The translations under genes and the position numbers were made by a program. Below, one piece after another: positions 22-20,102 of a stretch of 20,102 bases of DNA. The notes under the pieces were generated by a model that searched no databases, had not been told where the DNA came from, and saw only the letters and a list, made by a program, of their open reading frames with translations. Each line of letters begins with the position of its first letter. Position 1 is the stretch's first letter. Source of the DNA: a virus. The DNA is taken from positions 2,179 to 22,280 of the IMG/VR virus record IMGVR_UViG_3300000101_000204. The stretch is one strand, 5' to 3'.

Positions 22-1269
22 ATGCCAGATAACACAATAGAATGGGGACAAGGTGCAGTAAACAACAGCAACGATTGGGGTAAAGCAAAAGCTAATGCTA
101 CAAATAACTTTGGTGCTGTTTATGATGATTCGCCAAGTGGTGATACTAATATTGCTGGTGGTACGGCTGTTGCTCTTAGAATTACTTATTCGGCTAGTGC
201 TTTTTGTGAAGATGCAAGCGACCCTACACCAACAGTAACTGGTAATGCTGGAGCTGGTACATTTAGTTCTACTACTGGTTTAGTGTTTGTTAGTACAGCT
301 ACTGGAGTTGTTGACATCTCTGCTTCAACATCAGGTGCTACTTATGTAATTACTTATACAGATACAAATGCTGCTACTGCAACTTTTAATTTAACTATTA
401 ATGCTTTAGATGATGCTGCTTTCTCTTATTCAGATAGTAGTTATCCACAAAACTTCCCAGACCCTACTCCTACTATAACAGGTTTAGCTGGTGGAACTTT
501 TAGTGGTTCAACTGGTTTAGTGATTGATTCTAGTACTGGAGTTATTGATTTAGATGCTTCAACTATTGCATCTCATACTATTACTTATGATACTACTTCA
601 AGTGGTTCAAGTGTATGTCCAAATACATCTACACAAACAGTAGGAATTACATCTGCATTAGCTCAAGTAAACAATGTTTATTCTATGGCGTTTGATACTT
701 TAATTAATGAAAGCGTAAGTGCTGGAAACACTTTAACTAATGGTTTTTCTCAATTAAGCATATCACTTTGGGCAAATTTTGCTTCTGTTCCGACAAATAG
801 AGTTTTAGGGTTGGCTTCTAAAGATGATACTAATGAGAGAAGTTTTGATTTAAGATATATACAAAATACTGGAGTAAATTTTTTGGTATCAACTGATGGC
901 GTAAACAGCGGTCAGACTGCATATTATCCTAAAGCAAGTATAAGTGCAGGTCAATGGTATCATTTTGTTGGTGTTTATGATGGTTCTAATGTTTTACTTT
1001 ATGTAAATGGTGCTTTATTTGATGGCACATCTACTTTAACAGGTTCTTTACAAAATACAACTTCAGAATTTTTCATAGGAAAAAGAGGATTTGGTATAAC
1101 AAACTCAGGGTTTGACGGAAAACTTGACGAAGTAGCAGTATTTAACACAGCTTTAACAGCACAAGATGTACAAAGTATTTACTTAGCAACAGCAGTTGTA
1201 GGTGGAGTAAAGAAAACAGCAGATTTAAGTCAATTAACAACACCACCAGTAGCGTGGTATAGAATGTAA
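22..1269 (+). CDS. LamG-domain tail fibre / receptor-binding protein with adhesin-like repeats
   Basis: A 415-residue protein, probably a virion appendage that binds host surface glycans. The N-terminus (about 1-45) holds the motif NTIEWGQGA and a YDDSPSGDTNI segment, which I associate with virion attachment ends of Bacteroidota phage fibres. Residues about 58-113 and 138-190 are two tandem copies of a beta-rich repeat with the pattern DPTPT(V/I)TG..G.GTFS..TGLV...TGV(V/I)D..AST....ITY. This repeat is typical of flavobacterial surface adhesins and gliding-type proteins. Residues about 220-385 form a LamG/concanavalin-like domain (QWYHFVGVYDG, LYVNG, FFIGKRG, GKLDEVAVFN). The ATG at 22 follows an A/T-rich leader with no Shine-Dalgarno, as elsewhere here. 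The stop lies 3 bases before the next gene, which carries three more LamG domains. The fold calls rest on motif recognition; a role in adsorption is inferred. Confidence 0.75.
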   Translation: MPDNTIEWGQGAVNNSNDWGKAKANATNNFGAVYDDSPSGDTNIAGGTAVALRITYSASAFCEDASDPTPTVTGNAGAGTFSSTTGLVFVSTATGVVDISASTSGATYVITYTDTNAATATFNLTINALDDAAFSYSDSSYPQNFPDPTPTITGLAGGTFSGSTGLVIDSSTGVIDLDASTIASHTITYDTTSSGSSVCPNTSTQTVGITSALAQVNNVYSMAFDTLINESVSAGNTLTNGFSQLSISLWANFASVPTNRVLGLASKDDTNERSFDLRYIQNTGVNFLVSTDGVNSGQTAYYPKASISAGQWYHFVGVYDGSNVLLYVNGALFDGTSTLTGSLQNTTSEFFIGKRGFGITNSGFDGKLDEVAVFNTALTAQDVQSIYLATAVVGGVKKTADLSQLTTPPVAWYRM

Positions 1270-1272
1270 ACT

Positions 1273-3402
1273 ATGGCAACAGAATATTTTAATGACGCTT
1301 GGAGAATACCAAACAATAAAAATCAAAGTTTAGTTTCGAACTATTCTATGGAGTTTAATGGTGGTGAAAATGTAAATATATCACCAGAAGTTGATTTAGG
1401 AATAAATTCAACTGTTTCTGTATGGACTAATTTTAGTTCAGCACTAAATTTTGTTATTCTTGGAAATAATCTTACTTCTAACTATTTATTATATGCAGAT
1501 GCGACAAGTATATATGCAAGAATAAATACTGTTTTTAAAACATTTACTCATTCTATAGTATTAAATCAATGGTATAATATAATTTTAGTAAGAACTGGAG
1601 ATAGTATTGAAGTTTTTCAAAATGGTAATTCTTTAGGTACACAAACTGGATATGGAACTACTGTAACTACTAAAATTAGCACAATAGGTTCTAAGCCAGC
1701 AGGAACTTTTGCTGTTATTGGTAAAATAGACCAAGTAAGTATTTTTGATTATGCCTTACCAGCAACAGGAACAAACTCTGTAGCTACTCTTTATGGTGGT
1801 GGAACAGCTGTTACAAATCCAATGTCGTTATCACCTAAGCCAGTATCTTACTATCAATTAGGTGACCAATCAGTAGATAACGGAGCTAATTATTTAGTTC
1901 CAAATAATAGTTTACAAGATTATGTATTTGATTTAATTACAGGTGATTACATAAGTTTTGTAAATGGTCTTACAATGGCAAGACAACAAAATATAAGTTA
2001 TTCAGCTTGGGTTAACACTACAAATTTATCAACAACTCAATACATTGTAGGTAATAATAACAGCTCAAATCAAGGTACGTCTATTTTTATATTAAATACA
2101 GCAAGTTATCCAGATAGATTAGTATTTCAATTTGGAGATTTAGTAAACTTTAACAATCAATCTTATTTTAATAGTATTGTTTCAAATTTATCCACCTATG
2201 TAAGTGCTAATGAATGGTTTCACGTTGCTGCTTCTTGGGATGGAACTACTTCAAAAATATATATTAATGGAATAGAAAGAAATAGCTGGACTCCTACTCA
2301 ACCCCCCACTTATACTATATCTAACTGGGGTTCATTTAGAATTGGTAGAAGAGGAGATTCTGCTACTTCATATTTTAATGGTATGTTGTCAAATGTTGCT
2401 TTTTGGGATAACGGTTTAACACCTTCTCAAGTGATTACACTTTATAACAACGGCGTACCTGGAGACATTTCTTCATTAAGTCCTGTTTCTTGGTGGAAGT
2501 TAAACGCTCAAGATACTTTTGATGGTACTAACTGGACAATAAAAGATTATGCTGGCAGCAACGATGGAACAAGTAATGGTATGGATTCATCAAACTTAGT
2601 TGTAAGTGATTTACAGCACACATCAGGTTTTAGTCCGTACGCACTAAGTCTTTCTGGTGGGGGTGAATTTATGTACACTAATATAAGTGCGCTAACTTCA
2701 ATTAGTACAATTACAACTTCAATATGGATTAAACTTTCTACTACAAATTTTGGTTATGCTTTAAATATTAACGGAAATAATAGCACAGAAATAAGTTTTG
2801 GATATAACTCAGGTAAATTCTTCTTTTATTCTGGAGCTGTTCAGGGTTATGCTGCTAATCCATCAAGTGCTGGTGTTTGGTATAATATTGTATTAACAAG
2901 GTCAGGAGATACACAAAAAATGTATATTGATGGAGTTCTTGAAGCAACTGCAACTGGCTTAACAACATTGAGTTTAAATGATTATGTATTAATTGGTAAA
3001 AGAAACAATGGTTTTAATATAGCTGCTGATGTTTCAAACTTAGCTATTTGGTCATCTGAATTAACAACTTCACAAATAACAACATTATATAATCAAGGAT
3101 TACCATCTAATTTAAGTACGTTTTCAACAAAGCCAATATTTTGGTCACAATTTGGAACTAACAGTTCTTTTAATGCTGCTGCTAATAGATGGACTTCAAT
3201 AGATGAAATATCAGGCAATAATGTTTTAAGTCATACTGTAATGGCAGGAGATGACATTACAAATGGTGTTGGATATTCTGCAAATGGTTTAGGAACAAGC
3301 TCTATTGAAATTATTGGAGATGCTCCCTACTCTACAGCAAATGGCATATCAAATTCAATGGACGTTTTATCTCGTTCAACAGATTTACCACCAACAGTAT
3401 AA
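1273..3402 (+). CDS. Triple-LamG virion appendage protein
   Basis: A 709-residue protein made almost entirely of three LamG-like jelly-roll domains, at about residues 22-165, 218-395 and 455-610. Each contains the family signatures: an input strand such as YSMEFNG or YVFDL, a W(Y/F)H/N...(V/R) strand (QWYNIILVRTGD, EWFHVAASWDG, VWYNIVLTRSGD), a (I/L)xxNG or DG hairpin, an IG(R/K) strand and a final (D/N)(V/Q)(S/A)(I/F)(F/W) strand before a LTxxQ(I/V)xxLY helix. Linkers of the type SPVSWWKL connect the domains. Such domains bind carbohydrate or peptide ligands, so a role as tail fibre, appendage or virion decoration in host recognition is likely but inferred. It lies directly after another LamG protein, and the two were probably transcribed and assembled together. 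The ATG at 1273 is 3 bases after the upstream stop. Confidence 0.75.
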   Translation: MATEYFNDAWRIPNNKNQSLVSNYSMEFNGGENVNISPEVDLGINSTVSVWTNFSSALNFVILGNNLTSNYLLYADATSIYARINTVFKTFTHSIVLNQWYNIILVRTGDSIEVFQNGNSLGTQTGYGTTVTTKISTIGSKPAGTFAVIGKIDQVSIFDYALPATGTNSVATLYGGGTAVTNPMSLSPKPVSYYQLGDQSVDNGANYLVPNNSLQDYVFDLITGDYISFVNGLTMARQQNISYSAWVNTTNLSTTQYIVGNNNSSNQGTSIFILNTASYPDRLVFQFGDLVNFNNQSYFNSIVSNLSTYVSANEWFHVAASWDGTTSKIYINGIERNSWTPTQPPTYTISNWGSFRIGRRGDSATSYFNGMLSNVAFWDNGLTPSQVITLYNNGVPGDISSLSPVSWWKLNAQDTFDGTNWTIKDYAGSNDGTSNGMDSSNLVVSDLQHTSGFSPYALSLSGGGEFMYTNISALTSISTITTSIWIKLSTTNFGYALNINGNNSTEISFGYNSGKFFFYSGAVQGYAANPSSAGVWYNIVLTRSGDTQKMYIDGVLEATATGLTTLSLNDYVLIGKRNNGFNIAADVSNLAIWSSELTTSQITTLYNQGLPSNLSTFSTKPIFWSQFGTNSSFNAAANRWTSIDEISGNNVLSHTVMAGDDITNGVGYSANGLGTSSIEIIGDAPYSTANGISNSMDVLSRSTDLPPTV

Positions 3403-3669: not shown

Positions 3670-3800
3670 TGAAAAAACCTACAATTTTAAAGAAATACAA
3701 GCCTAAAAAAAAGCGTAAAGGAATACACGCTAAGACTAAAACGTCTACAATTAAGGGTTCTAAATTGTATGTAAAAAAGTATAATGGACAAGGTAAATAG
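3669..3800 (+). CDS. Tiny Lys-rich basic protein
   Basis: A 43-residue frame running from the ATG that overlaps the preceding stop (TAATG at 3667-3671) to the TAG at 3798-3800. Sixteen of the 43 residues are Lys and one more is Arg. It ends in SKLYVKKYNGQGK, a tail I recall from short basic proteins in other phages of this type, though I cannot verify that here. The density of Lys suggests contact with nucleic acid or with an acidic partner. It is supported as a gene by its exact coupling to both neighbours: the next gene's ATG lies inside its last codons at 3784. Function unknown. Confidence 0.55.
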   Translation: MKKPTILKKYKPKKKRKGIHAKTKTSTIKGSKLYVKKYNGQGK

Positions 3801-4104
3801 TTTGAGAATGGATGACCACGGATTGTTAATAGCTTTAATTTCGGCTTTAGGGATTAAGGAAATTTGGAATATAATAAAGCAAAAAATAGACATAGGAGCT
3901 AAAAGAGAACAGCGTCAAGACTCTATACAAGCTCAGGTCATTTTACAACTTAAAGACAAAATAGATTCTTTAGAGTCTAGGATAGATGTTTTAATAGAAG
4001 AAAATGGTAGGCTTAGAGAAAAATTAGCTAGAGTTGAAGAACGTTTAATATTGAACGCAAAAAAAAAAGTCAATAGAAAAGTAAATAGAAATGAAACTAA
4101 GTAA
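3784..4104 (+). CDS. N-terminal hydrophobic helix plus coiled-coil protein, spanin-like topology
   Basis: A 106-residue protein. A hydrophobic stretch (GLLIALISALGIKEIWNII, residues about 13-31) is followed by a long heptad-rich, charged coiled coil (about 45-95) and a basic tail. It sits immediately before the M15 endolysin, overlapping it by 14 nt, and is two genes before a holin-like gene. That location and topology would suit an inner-membrane spanin or lysis accessory protein. This is inference: the hydrophobic stretch is short and could instead be an amphipathic oligomerisation helix. The start could be the ATG at 3784, inside the end of the preceding gene, or the ATG at 3808 (MDDHGLLIAL), which lies just after that gene's stop and keeps all visible domains. 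Confidence 0.65.
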   Translation: MDKVNSLRMDDHGLLIALISALGIKEIWNIIKQKIDIGAKREQRQDSIQAQVILQLKDKIDSLESRIDVLIEENGRLREKLARVEERLILNAKKKVNRKVNRNETK

Positions 4105-11623: not shown

Positions 11624-11939
11624 AATAATTAAAGAATATAAACAAACTGACGTATTTGACGGTAACAGCTTAAATAAACAACTAAAAGAATTAACAGCCT
11701 ATCTATATCATATAGAAACTATTAGAACTAAGGCACATAACGACTTTGAAAAGGTTATACATAATAGAGTCAAAGAGGGTTTTTCTGTAGCTAGAGCAAC
11801 TAATGAGGCTAATGTAGAAGTCCCTGAAATGTATGAGCTTAGAAGATTGTTAGAGTCTGGCTATAGGGTAATAGATGCAATGAGGACTAATATAAGTTTC
11901 TTAAAATCTGAAATGTACAACGTAACAAAAGAATATTGA
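11595..11939 (+). CDS. Hypothetical helical protein
   Basis: A 114-residue soluble helical protein. It starts with KSTLDRIAEIIKEYK and has a middle segment rich in Glu/Asn/Ala (EGFSVARATNEANVEVPEMYELRR). No motif that I recognise is present. It overlaps the resolvase-like gene by 29 nt and the methyltransferase start by one base, as part of the same operon. The position between a nuclease and a methyltransferase suggests DNA metabolism, which cannot be refined. Confidence 0.6.
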   Translation: MKSTLDRIAEIIKEYKQTDVFDGNSLNKQLKELTAYLYHIETIRTKAHNDFEKVIHNRVKEGFSVARATNEANVEVPEMYELRRLLESGYRVIDAMRTNISFLKSEMYNVTKEY

Positions 11940-12574
11940 TGACTATTACTAACGAAGATAATATGGAACTAATGGCAAGGTATGAAGATAACTACTTTGA
12001 CCTTGCAATAGTTGACCCGCCATACGGCATAGGAGCTGACAAGGCTCAAAATGCTGGAGGAGAGAAATATGGTTATAAAAAATATAAAGAAACTGACTGG
12101 GACAGTTCTATTCCTGACGCTTATTATTTTAAAGAATTATTTAGAGTAAGTAAAAACCAAATAGTATGGGGTGGCAATTATATGACTGAACATTTACCAC
12201 CTAGAATGGGATGGGTTTTATGGGATAAAGGACAAAGAGAGTTTAGTTTAGCAGATGGAGAGTTAGCTTGGACTTCTTTTCAAAAGGCATTAAGAATATT
12301 TACAATGCCTAGAGGTGCAGCACTTTCCGACGCTAACAATAGCGGTGGGAAACTTCATCCAACACAAAAACCAATTAAACTTTATGAATGGATATTAATG
12401 AACTATGCAAAGGAAGGCGATAAAATACTTGATACTCACTTAGGAAGCGGCTCAATAGCTTTAGCTTGCCACAATCTAGGATATGACTTAACAGCTTGTG
12501 AACTTGACAAAGAGTATTACGATGCAGCAATGAAAAGAATAAAACAACATAAACAACAAATAAGAATGTTTTGA
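11939..12574 (+). CDS. DNA methyltransferase 1, beta-type N6-adenine (DPPY) class
   Basis: A 211-residue enzyme counted from the ATG at 11939 (TGATG overlap with the previous stop); a TTG one codon earlier is unnecessary. Motif IV is DPPYGI (about 24-29). The C-terminal HPTQKPIKLYEWIL (motif X region) leads to motif I DTHLGSGSIALACHNLGYDLTACELD, where S-adenosylmethionine binds. The order DPPY, target region, HPTQKP, GSG is that of N6_N4_Mtase beta-class enzymes. DPPY favours N6-adenine. No restriction endonuclease is adjacent, so it is an orphan, likely for evading host restriction or for regulation. Both ends are nearly identical to a second methyltransferase at 14008, while the middle, the presumed target-recognition region, differs. 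Confidence 0.85.
   Translation: MTITNEDNMELMARYEDNYFDLAIVDPPYGIGADKAQNAGGEKYGYKKYKETDWDSSIPDAYYFKELFRVSKNQIVWGGNYMTEHLPPRMGWVLWDKGQREFSLADGELAWTSFQKALRIFTMPRGAALSDANNSGGKLHPTQKPIKLYEWILMNYAKEGDKILDTHLGSGSIALACHNLGYDLTACELDKEYYDAAMKRIKQHKQQIRMF
11960..11997 (+). repeat. 38-bp exact direct repeat, copy 1 (5' end of methyltransferase 1)
   Basis: These 38 bases occur again without change at 14029-14066, in the same reading position of the second methyltransferase gene. A second exact match of 26 bp links 12506-12531 with 14548-14573 near the 3' ends. The two genes therefore share near-identical ends at DNA level, pointing to duplication or gene conversion more recent than the divergence of their central parts. 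Recombination between the copies would delete about 2.07 kb. Confidence 0.9.
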
Positions 12575-13859: not shown

Positions 13860-14011
13860 AATTAACACCTAAAGAAATAAAAGAGCAAAAGGCTAAGTTT
13901 GGTAGTGAGGCTGTAAATTACTTTATTAGGTTTATGGAAGCTAGAAGAAAATGGAGGAGACTTCCTGACTCATTTATAAAACAAGTTATAGAGAATAGCG
14001 AGAAACAATGA
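13856..14011 (+). CDS. Small basic helical hypothetical protein
   Basis: A 51-residue helical frame starting KLTPKEIKEQKAKFG, with a central helix EAVNYFIRFMEARRKWRRLPDSF. The start overlaps the preceding stop by 4 nt and the TGA overlaps the methyltransferase 2 ATG by 4 nt. The TPKE start and basic helix resemble small phage accessory proteins, but I cannot identify it. Confidence 0.5.
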   Translation: MKLTPKEIKEQKAKFGSEAVNYFIRFMEARRKWRRLPDSFIKQVIENSEKQ

Positions 14012-14625
14012 ATATTACAAACGAGGACAATATGGAACTAATGGCAAGGTATGAAGATAACTACTTCGACCTTGCTATAGTAGACCCGCCTTATGGGATT
14101 GATGCAGGTAAAATGACAATGGGGAGCGGAAAGCACGAATTTGTTAAAGGCAAGGATTGGGATAGCGCAGTACCTAATGATGATTATTTTAAAGAATTAT
14201 TTAGAGTGAGCAGTGAACAGATAATATGGGGTGGTAATTATTTTAAACTGCCTTTAAATAATAATTGGATAATATGGGATAAAAGAAACCCAAACTTAAG
14301 TTTTTCTGAAGCCGAGTTAGCGTGGTGTAGTATAAATAAAAATGTTCGCATATTTCAAAGACTATCAACGCTGCCTGATTATGATGGTAAAAAGAAACAC
14401 CCAACACAGAAGCCTATAAAGCTGTATGAATGGATTTTAATGAAATACGCAAATGAAGGGAATAAAATACTTGATACACATTTAGGTTCAGGTAGTATAG
14501 CAATAGCTTGTCATAATTTAGGATATGATTTAACAGCTTGTGAGTTAGACAAAGAGTATTACGATGCAGCAATTAAAAGACTTAAACAACATCAACAACA
14601 ATTAACAATGTTTAATGACAAATAA
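14008..14625 (+). CDS. DNA methyltransferase 2, beta-type N6-adenine (DPPY) class
   Basis: A 205-residue paralogue of the enzyme at 11939. Motif IV DPPYGI, HPTQKPIKLYEWIL and motif I DTHLGSGSIAIACHNLGYDLTACELD are intact, so it should be active. The first about 29 residues and the last about 75 are nearly identical to methyltransferase 1. The middle (DAGKMTMGSGKHEFVKGKDW onward and RIFQRLSTLPDYDG) is different, which suggests a changed recognition sequence. It has no companion endonuclease. It is coupled upstream to a small gene and downstream, by an 11-nt overlap, to the small terminase. This raises the possibility that methylation and packaging are expressed together. Confidence 0.85.
   Translation: MNITNEDNMELMARYEDNYFDLAIVDPPYGIDAGKMTMGSGKHEFVKGKDWDSAVPNDDYFKELFRVSSEQIIWGGNYFKLPLNNNWIIWDKRNPNLSFSEAELAWCSINKNVRIFQRLSTLPDYDGKKKHPTQKPIKLYEWILMKYANEGNKILDTHLGSGSIAIACHNLGYDLTACELDKEYYDAAIKRLKQHQQQLTMFNDK
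14029..14066 (+). repeat. 38-bp exact direct repeat, copy 2 (5' end of methyltransferase 2)
   Basis: Identical to 11960-11997 in the first methyltransferase gene. Identity stops abruptly outside the shared coding segments: upstream the two start regions differ, and downstream similarity drops after the DPPYG codons until the 3' conserved block. That layout is what conversion or duplication with a swapped central part would give. Confidence 0.9.
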
Positions 14626-15085
14626 ACTAACACCTAAACAAAGTAAATTCGCTGAGGAGTATGTCAATACTGGTAATGCGTCAGAGGCTTATAGACGAGC
14701 TTATGATGTTGCTAAAACTACGTCTAATGAAGTTATAGCAGTTAAAGCTAGTGAACTACTTAAAAATGGTAATATATCGGTAAGGGTCAAAGAGTTGCAA
14801 ATAAAAGTATCTGAAGCCTTTCAAATAACACGTAAGGAAGTAGCTGAGGGCTATTTTAAGATGATTAAATCTTGGGAGTATCTAATGGACTTAGCAGCAA
14901 AAGAAAGTCTCACAAAAGACCAGAAAGCTAAGTTTTATTTATTAAAGGAAATGGTTAAAGGTTCTGACTATCGTGGTGCTTATGATTCTATAGCTAAGAT
15001 GTTTGGACTAAATGCACCAGACAAACAAGAAATAGAGTCCACTGTAAACAATATAAACATTAATATTAAGCGTGGAAGCGACTGA
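14615..15085 (+). CDS. terS: Terminase small subunit (Terminase_2 type)
   Basis: A 156-residue protein. The N-terminal LTPKQSKFAEEYVNTGNASEAYRRAY (residues 4-29) is the classic Terminase_2 helix-turn-helix block, followed by EVIAVKASELLKNGNISVRVKEL. The protein recognises the packaging site on concatemeric DNA and regulates the large subunit. The C-terminal tail ends in a strand-like NNININIKRGSD, which may form the oligomer rim or contact the motor. It overlaps methyltransferase 2 by 11 nt and the large terminase by 14 nt. Length is normal. Confidence 0.88.
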   Translation: MTNKLTPKQSKFAEEYVNTGNASEAYRRAYDVAKTTSNEVIAVKASELLKNGNISVRVKELQIKVSEAFQITRKEVAEGYFKMIKSWEYLMDLAAKESLTKDQKAKFYLLKEMVKGSDYRGAYDSIAKMFGLNAPDKQEIESTVNNININIKRGSD

Positions 15086-16250
15086 AATATTCGAGCGTAA
15101 CTATGATAGTAACTCTAAGATTGTAATAAATAGAGGAGGGACTAGAAGTTCTAAAACTTGGTCCTTAAATCAATTATGTGCTTTATGGTTAATTAGTGGT
15201 AACTATGGTCAAGATAAATACTGTTATGAGGGCGTTTGGACCACTGTAAGGAAGTATAGGACTAATTTAGATGGAACTGTAATTAGAGACTTTGAGGACA
15301 TTTTAAAGGCTGAGGGTTGGTATGATGGGGTAGAACATAACAAAACTAAGAAACAATATAGATACGGTAAAAGGTTGGTAGAGTTTATAGGTGCAGATGA
15401 TGAGCAAAAGCTAAGAGGTGCTAAAAGAAATATACTATATTGTAATGAGGCAAATGAATTAGAATACAAACAGGAGTTCTTCCAACTATTAATGAGGACC
15501 GAAAATAAGATATTCCTAGACTTTAACCCAGATGACGAGCAACTCTGGATAAACCAAGAACTTGAAATAAAGCGTTCTAAAGAGGTTGGAGATGTTGAGG
15601 TAATAGTAAGCAACTATAAAAACAATTCGTTTCTACCTAAGTCACTAATTAAAGAAATAGAGTATTTAAAACAAACAGACAAAGAGTTTTGGAAAATATA
15701 CGGTTTAGGTGAGTATGGTAATATAAGTGGGTTAATATATGATAATGTTAAATATGTTGATAGTATGCCAGATTGTAGGCTTGTAGCTTATGGCTTAGAC
15801 TTTGGGTATAGTATAGACCCCTCAGCGTGTTTAGCTGTTTATAAGAAAGATGATGAGCTATATTTAAAAGAAATAGTATATGAAAGACAATTAACTAACC
15901 AGGACCTAGCAGAAAGGCTAAGACCAATACTAGGTAATGATGAGGTTATTTGTGATAGTGCTGAGCCTAAAAGTATTGAGGAGATATATAGACTAGGTTT
16001 AAATGCTAAGCCAGCTGCTAAAGGTCGTGACAGTATTCTAAACGGAATAGATATATTAAAAAGGTATAAAATCAATGTTGTAAATAGTAGCAATCTTAGA
16101 CGTGAGTTTAGAATGTATAAATGGGCAACTGACAAGAACGGTAATAGTCTACAAAAACCAATAGGCTCTGACCACCTTTTAGACGCTTTGAGATACGTTG
16201 CACTAATACACTTAAAAGAAAACAATCGTGGATGGTATTCAATTAGATAA
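15072..16250 (+). CDS. terL: Terminase large subunit (Terminase_3 / ATPase-nuclease)
   Basis: A 392-residue DNA-packaging motor. Walker A GGTRSSKT is at 22-29, Walker B with the catalytic Glu is ILYCNE at 121-126, and the coupling motif is around LDFNPDD (149-155). The RNase-H-like nuclease shows Asp243 in YGLDFGYSIDP, Asp295 in ICDSAEPKS and Asp367/Asp371 in SDHLLDALRY. Both activities look intact. The start is GTG at 15072 within the end of the small subunit; no usable ATG precedes Walker A. It is slightly short but complete for the PBSX/Terminase_3 group. What follows is a 425-bp region without a gene, then tail genes in place of the usual portal gene. Confidence 0.93.
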   Translation: MEATEIFERNYDSNSKIVINRGGTRSSKTWSLNQLCALWLISGNYGQDKYCYEGVWTTVRKYRTNLDGTVIRDFEDILKAEGWYDGVEHNKTKKQYRYGKRLVEFIGADDEQKLRGAKRNILYCNEANELEYKQEFFQLLMRTENKIFLDFNPDDEQLWINQELEIKRSKEVGDVEVIVSNYKNNSFLPKSLIKEIEYLKQTDKEFWKIYGLGEYGNISGLIYDNVKYVDSMPDCRLVAYGLDFGYSIDPSACLAVYKKDDELYLKEIVYERQLTNQDLAERLRPILGNDEVICDSAEPKSIEEIYRLGLNAKPAAKGRDSILNGIDILKRYKINVVNSSNLRREFRMYKWATDKNGNSLQKPIGSDHLLDALRYVALIHLKENNRGWYSIR

Positions 16251-16360: not shown

Positions 16361-16404
16361 AGCAAATGCTGAGCAAATGCTATGCAAATGCTGAGCAAAT
16401 GGGG
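16361..16404. repeat. Four tandem 11-bp iterons
   Basis: Four contiguous 11-mers: AGCAAATGCTG, AGCAAATGCTA, TGCAAATGCTG and AGCAAATGGGG. The first two contain an internal dyad AGCA-AA-TGCT; the third keeps it except for its first base. The 11-bp period places each copy on about the same face of the helix, as in iteron arrays bound by replication initiators, repressors or terminase. The last copy is degenerate. The array is 19 bp downstream of the terminator and 14 bp upstream of an 18-bp palindrome. Confidence 0.8.
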
Positions 16405-16418
16405 TTATATAAGATAAG

Positions 16419-16436
16419 ATAAGATAATTATCTTAT
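16419..16436. repeat. 18-bp perfect palindrome
   Basis: ATAAGATAATTATCTTAT reads the same on both strands and is preceded by two further AAGAT units in phase (16411-16420). It has no T-run immediately after, so it is less likely a terminator than a protein-binding dyad or a cruciform site. Its closeness to the iterons suggests a composite control site. Confidence 0.75.
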
Positions 16437-16675: not shown

Positions 16676-17320
16676 ATGGAAATTACAATACCTACAAAGT
16701 GGTCAGATGTTACAATAGGTAACTATATAAATTTAAGACCAGTATTAAACTCTGACTTACAACCTATAGAAAGAGTAGTGAATATCCTAGCAGTCTTAAC
16801 AGGACAAAAAAGAGATGTAATAAAGAATATTAGTTTGGACCAGTTTAAGTCTATTAAAAAGAAAATGAGTTTTTTAGAAACTGAATTACCTAATAAACTA
16901 AAAGACAAAAGATTTAAGATTGGTGGTCAATGGTATGAATTTAAACTAGATGCTAAGAAGTTATTATTTGGCGAATATATAAACAGTATGGAAATACTAC
17001 AAAACGCTAAGGATGACCAGGAGGCTATATTCAATAACTTACATCATATATTAACTACAATATGTAGACCAGTTAAGAAAACTATTTTTGGATGGAAATA
17101 TATAAAGGTAGATGGTGAGATACTTAGAAAGACCGCAGATAACTTTTTGAACAATATGCCGATAACAATAGCTTATCCAATCGGTGTTTTTTTTTACAGT
17201 CACTCGGAGGATTTAACAAAAGCTATAAAAACCTCTTTGATGGACCAAGCAAAAAAGATGACGAGGGAAGCCAAAAAGGAACTGGATTTGCTGAGAGATG
17301 GGGATGGTGGAGTACATTAG
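16676..17320 (+). CDS. Tail assembly chaperone, short (G-like) form
   Basis: A 214-residue protein beginning EITIPTKWSDVTIGNY, a start I associate with Bacteroidota phage tail assembly chaperones (IPTKWSDVT...). The middle is helical (INSMEILQNAKDDQEAIFNNL), followed by PITIAYPIGVFFYSHSEDL. It ends in an unstructured Asp/Gly tail. In the -1 frame an unbroken coding stretch continues from within its last codons to 17472, with no start of its own, exactly as in the G/GT genes of siphophages. Two slippery sequences lie in frame near the end. The chaperone coats the tape-measure protein during tail assembly; the short form is the major product. It starts after the 425-bp control region. Confidence 0.65.
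   Translation: MEITIPTKWSDVTIGNYINLRPVLNSDLQPIERVVNILAVLTGQKRDVIKNISLDQFKSIKKKMSFLETELPNKLKDKRFKIGGQWYEFKLDAKKLLFGEYINSMEILQNAKDDQEAIFNNLHHILTTICRPVKKTIFGWKYIKVDGEILRKTADNFLNNMPITIAYPIGVFFYSHSEDLTKAIKTSLMDQAKKMTREAKKELDLLRDGDGGVH
17251..17257 (+). promoter_or_regulatory. -1 ribosomal frameshift slippery heptamer A_AAA_AAG
   Basis: In the reading frame of the chaperone gene the bases GCA AAA AAG at 17249-17257 contain A_AAA_AAG, the same heptamer used in bacterial dnaX. After a -1 slip decoding resumes with GAT at 17257 and stays open to TAA at 17470-17472. A run of nine T at 17187-17195 (in frame T_TTT_TTT) upstream is a second candidate, since the -1 frame is also open from there. No strong downstream hairpin is evident by eye. 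Confidence 0.65.
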
Positions 17321-17472
17321 ATAACTTGACTAATAGTAGAATAGACAAGTGGGATGAAATACTTAATTGGGATATAACTAAGGCACTAAATATAGTTTCT
17401 TATTATAGTGATAAACAAAAAATGGAGCAACAAGCTCAAAGAGAAATGAAGCAAAAGTATAAACATAGATAA
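17257..17472 (+). CDS. Tail assembly chaperone -1 frameshift extension (T-like domain)
   Basis: This is the -1 frame continuation, 71 codons after the slip. It has a hydrophilic linker (DDEGSQKGTG), then FAERWGWWSTLDNLTN, SRIDKWDEILNWDITKALNI and VSYYSDKQKMEQQAQREM. The Trp-rich W.W..LDNL..G/S...D...L..........LSY..D pattern is what I recall from C-terminal parts of Bacteroidota tail chaperones. No start codon precedes it; its only Met is near the end. It can therefore be expressed only by frameshifting from 16676, giving a fusion of about 265 residues. Its stop overlaps the next ATG by one base (TAATGG). In known siphophages the T domain recruits the tail tube and tape measure; this role is inferred. 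Confidence 0.65.
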   Translation, partial: DDEGSQKGTGFAERWGWWSTLDNLTNSRIDKWDEILNWDITKALNIVSYYSDKQKMEQQAQREMKQKYKHR

Positions 17473-18050
17473 TGGCTGAACAGTTAGACATATTCGGTTT
17501 TGATACTGACCAACTAGAAGAGGTCAAAGTAGACAATCCAACTACATTAAGTGAGGTGTTTAATAACATTGCTGCGGATATGGTTTACTGTCTTAAACAA
17601 TCTGTCACAAAAGAGGGTTTAGTGTATAAAGGAAAATTACACGACTCAATAAGAATGCCAGTTAAAATGTTTGGTTTTAAAATGATAGCGACATTATTCT
17701 TAGCTGACTACTATGACTACCTTAATAAAGGTGTTAAAGGTATTGGAGGCACTAGAAAGAGTGGAGATAAGAAAGGTCAGGGATGGGTTATTAAAGCACC
17801 TAATAGTCCTTATCAGTTTAAGAAAGGTCCAAGCGTTAGTCATATAAAAGCCTGGTCTAAAAGTAAAGGACTTAATGAATATGCAGTAAGAAACTCTATA
17901 GCTAGAACTGGTATTAAGCCTAGATACTTTTTTGATAATTGTATGCAACAAACTTTTTATGGTGAGGCTTTTAATAGGTTTAAAACAGATATTAGAATTG
18001 TCTCTGGTGAGAGAATAGCAAAAGGAATAAAAGAAATATTAAAGAAATGA
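17472..18050 (+). CDS. Tail completion / head-tail joining-like protein (HK97 gp10-like)
   Basis: A 192-residue protein. The central pattern ADMVYCLKQSVTKEGLVYKGKLHDSIRMPVKMFG, with a leading helix, a GxLxxSI turn and paired strands ATLFLADYYDYLNKGVKG, resembles the HK97 gp10-type tail-completion fold (helix, Lx.SI, strands, Y...YG). The insert GTRKSGDKKGQGW and the C-terminal helix add length over the usual 110-150 residues. These proteins sit at the head-tail junction or terminate the tail tube. It is coupled to the chaperone extension by TAATG and to the next gene by ATGA. A general minor tail protein is the alternative. Confidence 0.5.
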   Translation: MAEQLDIFGFDTDQLEEVKVDNPTTLSEVFNNIAADMVYCLKQSVTKEGLVYKGKLHDSIRMPVKMFGFKMIATLFLADYYDYLNKGVKGIGGTRKSGDKKGQGWVIKAPNSPYQFKKGPSVSHIKAWSKSKGLNEYAVRNSIARTGIKPRYFFDNCMQQTFYGEAFNRFKTDIRIVSGERIAKGIKEILKK

Positions 18051-19381
18051 GTTTAGAAATTAAATACTTACCGCAACAATATAGAACAGTTTACAATCCA
18101 GTTGAAATAGTAATGTTAGAAACAAACTCAACAACTAGGGGTTATGTTGGTTTTGCTTATTTAATTGATGTTAAAGACGGTGGAAACTTACTAGGACGTC
18201 TAAGAGTACCGCCTACTCAAAGTACTGGGTTTGGTAGGTTTGATATGTCAGGCGTAATGAAGTCATATATGTCAAGTGATGTTGGTTTATTAAATGGTAC
18301 TAATATAGAGTCAATGTTTAATAATACTAACTCTTATAAAGATTTATCTTTACAATTTGGGTGGATTCATTATAATGGTGGAACAGCTACAATTAGTATG
18401 AACCAAACAGTTACATTTCCAGATTCAACAACAGCCAATTCTTTTAACTTATTAACTTTTAATAGTAGTTTACCAAACTATAGAAGAGATATTGTTAATT
18501 TTTATGATTGGCAAAATACAAACTATTATCAAAATTATAGTAGTAATGTACTAACTAGAAAATTCTTAACTAACTCACCTCCTGGAATATCACAAAACAA
18601 TCAATATAATCAAAAGGTTAAATATACTGATGAGGGTTATTTATATTTTTTATATGATAATTCAAGTGCTGGAGGTTTAACAGGATTTGTAGTACAGCCT
18701 TATAATAATAATTTAAATATGCAACAGGTAACAGTTTCAACTCCAACCTTGTCAACATTTAAACATATTAGAATACCCTCAGCTCCAGCTACATTAAATA
18801 AAATAATAGGAAGTAGACTAACAATAGGAACTCAGCCAATAATAGCAACAACAGCGACTAGTTACTATATACAATTAATAACTGAAGAGGGTTTAGGTAG
18901 TCAAAAGTTTTATTATAATATTGAAACGGAATGTAGATATGAAACAAGGCGAATAGAGTTTTTAAATAGTTTAGGCGGTTTTGACTATTTTAACTTTACT
19001 AAAGTATCTAAACATACTGAAGAAATAGAAAGAAAGTATTTTCAAACTACTGCTAATGATTTAACCTCAACTGGGTCTATAAACTATTCTATAAGTAATA
19101 GAGAAAAAGTACAATACTATACTAAGTCAAGTCCTAAGTTAAAATTAAATTCAGATTGGGTAGATAGTAAAACTTTTAATTGGTTATTAGAATTAATAGA
19201 AAGTCCAGAAATTTATTTAATTGACAGCTATACATCTACTATAGATAGTATAGAGCTTAGACGTATTCCAATTAAAAACATAAATGGAAATTGGGAAGAA
19301 AAGTCAGATAGTGTAGATAAGTTATTTAATTTAGAAATAGAGTTAGAGTTTGGTATGGATAATTTTAGACAATCATTTTAA
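18047..19381 (+). CDS. Putative virion/tail structural protein
   Basis: A 444-residue, Asn/Ser/Thr/Tyr-rich, largely beta protein starting SLEIKYLPQQYRTVYNPVEIVM. I associate this type of start with a common but unnamed Bacteroidota phage virion protein. It has several aromatic-rich strand pairs, and C-terminal SIELRRIPIKNINGNWEEKSD followed by LFNLEIELEFGMDN reads like a terminal beta sheet. There is no signal peptide, membrane helix or catalytic motif. It sits in the tail operon between the tail-completion-like gene and a 37-residue gene, with one-base to four-base overlaps. A baseplate or distal tail role is possible; not assigned further. Confidence 0.6.
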   Translation: MSLEIKYLPQQYRTVYNPVEIVMLETNSTTRGYVGFAYLIDVKDGGNLLGRLRVPPTQSTGFGRFDMSGVMKSYMSSDVGLLNGTNIESMFNNTNSYKDLSLQFGWIHYNGGTATISMNQTVTFPDSTTANSFNLLTFNSSLPNYRRDIVNFYDWQNTNYYQNYSSNVLTRKFLTNSPPGISQNNQYNQKVKYTDEGYLYFLYDNSSAGGLTGFVVQPYNNNLNMQQVTVSTPTLSTFKHIRIPSAPATLNKIIGSRLTIGTQPIIATTATSYYIQLITEEGLGSQKFYYNIETECRYETRRIEFLNSLGGFDYFNFTKVSKHTEEIERKYFQTTANDLTSTGSINYSISNREKVQYYTKSSPKLKLNSDWVDSKTFNWLLELIESPEIYLIDSYTSTIDSIELRRIPIKNINGNWEEKSDSVDKLFNLEIELEFGMDNFRQSF

Positions 19382-19494
19382 TGAAAGAGAAAGAGACAGA
19401 ATTTGAAAAGATGTTAAGGAACTTAGAAAGTAAGCCAGTTCCTGAAAGGACTTGCAATATAGATGATGAAACTTGTGAAAGCTGTAGCGGATAA
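19381..19494 (+). CDS. Tiny Cys-containing peptide
   Basis: A 37-residue frame coupled to both neighbours by one-base overlaps (TAATG at 19379-19383 and again at 19492-19496). It begins with a charged helix (KEKETEFEKMLRNLES) and ends RTCNIDDETCESCSG, with three Cys in the last 13 residues that could bind a metal. This double coupling is the main reason to accept it. Function unknown. Confidence 0.5.
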   Translation: MKEKETEFEKMLRNLESKPVPERTCNIDDETCESCSG

Positions 19495-20102
19495 TGGTTA
19501 GAGAGGAATTATATATAGGTGGGTATGTAGTAGAGTTGTTAGGGTCTTTAAATCCTAATTTGACTTTTAATATTGCAGACATATCAAAGCCAGACACTAG
19601 AAACGCGGATTATTCTAAAACTATAAATTTACCAGCTAGTAAAAGAATAAATCAAATCTTTGAACATATATTTGAGTTAAGTAGTGACTTACAAACATTT
19701 AATCCTAATTTAAGAACTGAGGTTATTTATTTAGTAGATGGTGAGGTCCAAATAGACGGATATTTACAGTTAAAATCTATTAACAATAAAGATGGTGAAA
19801 TATCTTATAGCTGTATTATAATTGGTAGAGTAGGGAATTTTATAGCAGATTTACAAGACGCTGAATTAGTTGACTTAGATATAAGTTCATTAAATCATAT
19901 ATATAATAAAACAAACCAAGCCGCCACCTGGAATTTACCTTTAACAACTGACTATGTTTATCCAATGATTAACTATAATACTAATTATGGTGTGATAACT
20001 TCTGGCTTAGAAAATTGGTCAGTTGGAACATTTTATCCAGCTGTTAAAGCTAAAAAATACTTAGATTTAATATTTGCCTCTATTGGTTATACATATACCT
20101 CA
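19494..20102 (+). CDS. Large putative virion protein, 3' part outside window
   Basis: The first 203 codons of a longer gene that is open to the window end. It contains VREELYIGGYVVELLGSLNP, then ISKPDTRNADYSKTINLPASKRINQIFEHIFEL. The D.R...YSKTI.LP.SK.N...F.HIF block is one I recall from a widespread Bacteroidota phage structural protein, usually large and beta-rich. Repeating strand units such as GEVQIDGYLQLKSINNKDGEISYSC fit a baseplate or appendage hub. It belongs to the tail operon by position and by coupling to the preceding stop. Confidence 0.6.
   Translation, partial: MVREELYIGGYVVELLGSLNPNLTFNIADISKPDTRNADYSKTINLPASKRINQIFEHIFELSSDLQTFNPNLRTEVIYLVDGEVQIDGYLQLKSINNKDGEISYSCIIIGRVGNFIADLQDAELVDLDISSLNHIYNKTNQAATWNLPLTTDYVYPMINYNTNYGVITSGLENWSVGTFYPAVKAKKYLDLIFASIGYTYTS

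Follow-up and report, generated by a model that had tools for sequence, protein, structure and literature searches.

A conserved run of nine T's as the candidate site of a programmed frame change in a probable tail assembly chaperone gene of environmental tailed phages

The DNA analysed here, hereafter called the window, is a 20.1-kb stretch out of a 22.3-kb IMG/VR virus record. Its right-hand part carries a terminase gene followed by a gene that is read in two overlapping frames and by further genes in the same direction. The features of this region that are discussed below are as follows.

15072 to 16250, plus strand: terminase large subunit gene (Terminase_3), the upstream neighbour
16676 to 17472, plus strand: the whole frameshifted gene, with a GT-like fusion product of 265 amino acids
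16676 to 17320, plus strand: the ORF as called, giving the short, G-like 0-frame product of 214 amino acids
17187 to 17195, plus strand: T9 slip run, read in frame 0 as GTT TTT TTT TAC
17188 to 17194, plus strand: U_UUU_UUU heptamer, in phase and within T9, a possible ribosomal slip site
17194 to 17472, plus strand: T-like segment in the -1 frame, 92 codons and a stop, LQSLGGFN...GFAERWGWW...
17195 to 17320, plus strand: dual-coding overlap, under constraint in both frames
17251 to 17257, plus strand: A_AAA_AAG, the slip site of the sequence-only reading; a bystander that is not conserved
17472 to 18050, plus strand: next gene, whose start overlaps the -1 frame stop (TAATG); weak match to phrog_29822
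18047 to 19381, plus strand: gene for a 444-amino-acid protein in the same block, phrog_35281 (unknown function)
19494 to 20102, plus strand: first part of an ORF that continues past the window's end and by position corresponds to the 998-amino-acid ORF of the relative G001

An open -1 frame extends from 17143 to 17472 and covers both candidate slip sites, T9 and A_AAA_AAG; each was found where the sequence-only reading had placed it, and A_AAA_AAG is in phase as stated there. The TAA stop of this frame shares a base with the start codon ATG of the next gene (TAATG, 17470-17474), again as described earlier. The accompanying statement that the frame lacks a start codon holds for the part 5' of a TTG at 17326, but this TTG and two later ATG codons, at 17422 and 17446, are potential starts. 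They are the only ones, and all three sit 3' of much of the conserved part of the segment. A frame change at T9 adds 92 codons, counted from 17194, instead of the 71 that had been proposed, and gives a fusion of 265 amino acids with the junction ...GVFFLQSLGG...

Relatives were collected by scanning IMG/VR with queries from both parts of the gene, N and T, and from remoter members of the family, which together gave at least several hundred loci. The queries were back-translated degenerate peptide patterns; because these were drawn from several parts of the protein, the scans should not select for the T run. Among 50,697 phage records, the only isolates with sequence-level relatives were the Nonlabens phages P12024L and P12024S. 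A scan of bacterial genomes with the N-part profile gave no match, and a scan with the Nonlabens T segment gave one Winogradskyella MAG contig. The designation "flavophage-type" made from the sequence agrees with these nearest relatives, the two isolates infecting Flavobacteriaceae and the single MAG contig.

Relative to the N part, the T part was shifted by -1 in 290 of the 291 non-identical sequences listed, down to about 20% identity. In none of the 291 were the two parts joined in one unbroken frame, an arrangement that had been named beforehand as pointing to a sequencing error in the window. The sole exception to the -1 relation is a contig with one T fewer (IMGVR_UViG_3300017763_001333, loci L016 and L112, T8 at about position 2758), whose close relative L007 has T9; its T8 either arose in assembly or sequencing or marks a truly broken allele. 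Since the same two-frame arrangement recurs in 290 of 291 sequences, the split is not a sequencing error, and an indel artefact is refuted. The same recurrence, together with conservation in both frames, also argues against a decaying gene and bears out the earlier proposal that the second frame encodes a real protein and is not open by chance. To judge from the aligned sequences, the two-frame gene is real, and the lack of an in-frame fusion in any relative suggests that both products, short form and fusion, are needed. Translation of the second half as an independently started gene, by re-initiation, finds a precedent of sorts in P12024L, where gp41 is annotated from an ATG that overlaps the stop of gp40 (L255, 23946-24640). 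In the window, the first potential start in the -1 frame, TTG 17326, would omit the FFL...WGWW part. An explanation by artefact, decay or re-initiation, with no programmed event, is accordingly very improbable.

The position of the frame change was then judged by which signal is conserved, as the sequence-only reading had recommended. That reading placed the slip at A_AAA_AAG and regarded the T run as an unusual second option. The run was correctly recognized as slippery, but it is no mere second option, being universal bar one contig. Across the 407 loci listed, its length was nine in 383, ten in 22 and eight in two, the last both from one contig; outside that T8 contig (L016/L112), an unbroken T9 or T10 was present in 405 of 405 listed loci. 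These include relatives at about 20-26% identity, both Nonlabens isolates and the Winogradskyella MAG contig. When loci were reduced to 61 dissimilar clusters, the run was nine in 54 and ten in seven, and the residues FFL at the run were invariant across 40 diverse T segments.

A_AAA_AAG, by comparison, is nearly absent from relatives. The window and its nearest relatives, L002-L006, keep it in phase; of 35 non-redundant close relatives, two had it and 33 did not. Its presence alone is weak evidence for a slip site: it occurs 15 times on the plus strand of the window, four times in phase inside ORFs (four different ORFs). U_UUU_UUU occurs in phase just once in the window, at 17188, and T9 at 17187-17195 is the sole run of at least nine T's on the plus strand. 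Constraint on the protein leads to the same result. In the stretch that separates the T run from A_AAA_AAG, the third position of the -1 frame is the most variable (0.224), and variability at the third position of frame 0 is lowered (0.145 vs 0.421 upstream). Protein constraint in the -1 frame thus begins about 60 nt 5' of A_AAA_AAG, so this stretch is already read as protein in both frames, -1 and 0. Ribosomal -1 frameshifting at 17251-17257 is hardly credible on these grounds, and A_AAA_AAG was rejected as the slip site; it could serve at best as a minor additional site within the clade of the window. The sequences show that the conserved two-frame architecture has the T run as its site and that the overlap is dual-coding.

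How the run changes the frame is less direct. Most messages would be read in frame 0 and give the 214-amino-acid short form. In a fraction of messages, a frame change within T9 (17187-17195) would give the 265-amino-acid fusion with its C-terminal T-like segment. In the mechanism that we consider the most probable, at somewhat better than even odds, RNA polymerase slips on T9 and makes mRNA with one extra U; this U10 message, GUU UUU UUU UUA CAG, would lead into the frame of the T segment. The polymerase may act alone, or the ribosome may contribute a share by slipping -1 on the same U run. Both the machine that slips and the ratio of the products are inferred; the evidence on the machine is as follows.

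The first line of evidence is the base at 17194, where T and C encode the same residues in both frames (TTT/TTC, Phe; TTA/CTA, Leu) and C would leave the heptamer U_UUU_UUC. T was nevertheless present in 58 of the 61 clusters, when codon usage predicts about 14-18 changes (with nominal P values of 2e-4 to 1e-6, which are approximate because the clusters are not fully independent). The three clusters without T at this base have a T10 moved 3 nt upstream. The second line is the avoidance of long runs elsewhere. In 357 other ORFs of these phages (91,254 codons), compared with synonymous-codon shuffles, no run of nine or more T's was observed against 4.2 +/- 1.3 expected, and three A runs of this length were observed against 17.4 +/- 3.2 expected. 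The locus therefore combines a fixed run of at least nine T's, conserved in length among homologues, with avoidance of such runs in other coding regions of the phages, the combination that published comparative criteria take as the mark of programmed transcriptional slippage. Baranov et al. 2005 (PMC1088944) named conserved overlapping ORFs, conserved run length and run avoidance as criteria for functional slippage, and considered a run of nine A's or T's with a length conserved among homologues very likely to represent purposeful transcriptional slippage. Slippage in vivo at nine A's or T's is efficient (PMC5009743). A third line of evidence for a signal in the run length is the negative result on conserved RNA structure downstream of the run, given below. 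Against the polymerase, the avoidance of long runs may stem from replication errors rather than from transcription.

Two further observations were set aside. The flanking T's at 17187 and 17195 were considered as proof of selection on run length, but conserved hydrophobic residues explain them, and they are not decisive because other columns are just as strictly hydrophobic. Immediately 5' of T9, the window has a hairpin resembling an intrinsic terminator (UGCCGAU...AUCGGUG), as in stem-loop-mediated slippage; it is broken in the closest relatives and not conserved.

Ribosomal -1 frameshifting on U_UUU_UUU (17188-17194) would make the same fusion from an unaltered mRNA, in the manner of lambda with another heptamer, and we hold it to be a real possibility, at rather less than even odds. 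Every run of at least nine T's implies a heptamer in phase, and the one in the window has the X_XXY_YYZ form; since T9 always holds it, the run suits the ribosome as well as the polymerase. Protein constraint can account for the two T's beside the heptamer, and the tail chaperone frame changes so far studied have been described as ribosomal (PMC5009743). Several observations fit this alternative less well. T is held at 17194 even though a change to U_UUU_UUC would alter the protein in neither frame, no relative uses another heptamer, and runs of nine or more T's are kept here but avoided elsewhere. A search for pseudoknot-free folds found no conserved downstream RNA structure, RNAalifold windows being at the level of shuffled alignments and single-sequence z scores about 0, and no Shine-Dalgarno-like sequence was seen directly 5' of the run in the window, as had been anticipated from the sequence. 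A downstream structure or an upstream Shine-Dalgarno stimulator is usual in ribosomal -1 frameshifting but not obligatory. What stands of the lambda-like ribosomal event first proposed is the programmed -1 change; its ribosomal nature is not established, as a run of at least nine T's is also a signal for transcriptional slippage.

The gene product is a probable two-form tail assembly chaperone of the lambda G/GT type. In such pairs, G binds the tape measure and T binds the tail-tube protein, and both forms are needed for tails. We infer this function from the architecture, short and -1-extended products from overlapping ORFs that are kept in relatives, as the sequence-only reading had also recognized, and from the gene neighbourhood; the assignment rests on these two because comparisons with lambda G and P2 E and with the PDB were negative. 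Short-form relatives match phrog_32199 and, in distant relatives, the T segment matches phrog_38404, both of unknown function. Weak matches were obtained to phrog_166 (tail protein; seven members, best E 0.005) and to Phage_TAC_7 (one member, E 0.022), and NCBIfam gave only implausible weak ones. Alignment of the profile with hhalign to lambda G and P2 E, each as a single sequence, detected no relation. The structure model of the short form is confident (mean pLDDT 85), and a PDB fold search with a second look gave no convincing match to it. Its matches in BFVD are mostly uncharacterized phage proteins, including one from Nonlabens phage P12024S, and one match named as a tail assembly chaperone has an E of 0.016. 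A further BFVD match, R9VW65, is probably AGN89393 of Flavobacterium phage 6H, as judged by length only. In that phage (L416, 9500-11000, minus strand), AGN89393 ends in ...CFFYSTR with TTTTTTC, followed by a second-frame ORF. This probable counterpart, with T6C and a second frame built differently, may be a distant chaperone that changes frame at a different signal.

The genes around the chaperone-type gene are consistent with a structural module. The next gene weakly matches phrog_29822, the family of P12024L gp43, which in turn weakly matches a tail completion/Neck1 family. Of the relatives, G001, G003 and P12024L have a tape-measure-like gene in the structural module; the window itself ends before reaching one. 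In G001 the tape-measure gene lies after the 998-amino-acid ORF, with three genes between it and the chaperone-type gene. Upstream, the terminase and chaperone genes are separated by a 425-nt gap in the window, whereas in P12024L the two genes abut. A tandem 11-bp repeat (AGCAAATGCTG, 3.7 copies) followed by ATAAG x 3.8 occupies 16361-16427 within this gap.

Like lambda G/GT, the window has a short and a -1-extended form from overlapping ORFs among structural genes, with the frame change in the 3' part of the short form. Lambda uses ribosomal -1 frameshifting on G_GGA_AAG, whereas the slip site here is a T9 run; homology in sequence to lambda is not detectable, the two frames overlap by about 125 nt in the window and by more in some relatives, and the gene follows the terminase gene and, in G001, is separated from the tape-measure gene by three others. 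Its direct relatives are gp40 and gp41 of P12024L/S, which share T9 and the -1 frame T segment. Their short form is about 24% identical to that of the window, their overlap is shorter, and the halves are annotated as two unrelated hypothetical proteins. With the known cases of transcriptional slippage (Shigella mxiE and spa13, Thermus dnaX, IS elements, C. rodentium tssM) the locus shares an A/T run of at least nine with conserved length, an ORF continued in another frame, run avoidance and the lack of a conserved stimulator. It differs from them in being a gene of a phage structural module, in a large phage family, and in being known from sequence alone.

The tail chaperone frame change is a textbook conserved phage recoding event and is treated as ribosomal. 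A literature search, thin on subscription papers, found no report of such a change at T runs or in Bacteroidetes phages, so the novelty of the present case is provisional. Transcriptional slippage itself is well known, including in multiprotein machines such as Shigella type III secretion and the C. rodentium tssM system (PMC5009743, PMC4256274). We give an even chance to the broader proposition that polymerase slippage on T9/T10, and not the ribosome, produces the tail assembly chaperone pair in a large family of tailed phages that is widespread in the environment and probably infects Bacteroidota. If so, the ratio of short form to fusion would be set during transcription, and a homopolymer at the threshold for polymerase slippage, as the only conserved signal, would show that RNA polymerase can set a two-product system. 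The two-frame structure also explains the split annotation of this gene, with its halves in phrog_32199 and phrog_38404 and as hypothetical proteins in isolates.

Other parts of the window were also of note. An A10 run at 4059-4068, near the end of an ORF (3784-4104) and directly before a peptidase M15 gene, contrasts with the strong avoidance of A runs of nine or more in these phages. Two adjacent Laminin_G_3 (concanavalin-like) genes at 22-3402, the first with one such domain and the second with three, encode what may be receptor-binding proteins or proteins of the virion surface. Two paralogous N6/N4 DNA methyltransferase genes, 11936-12574 and 14008-14625, lie about 1.4 kb apart; at 66% protein and 71.6% DNA identity, the pair looks like a diverged duplication.
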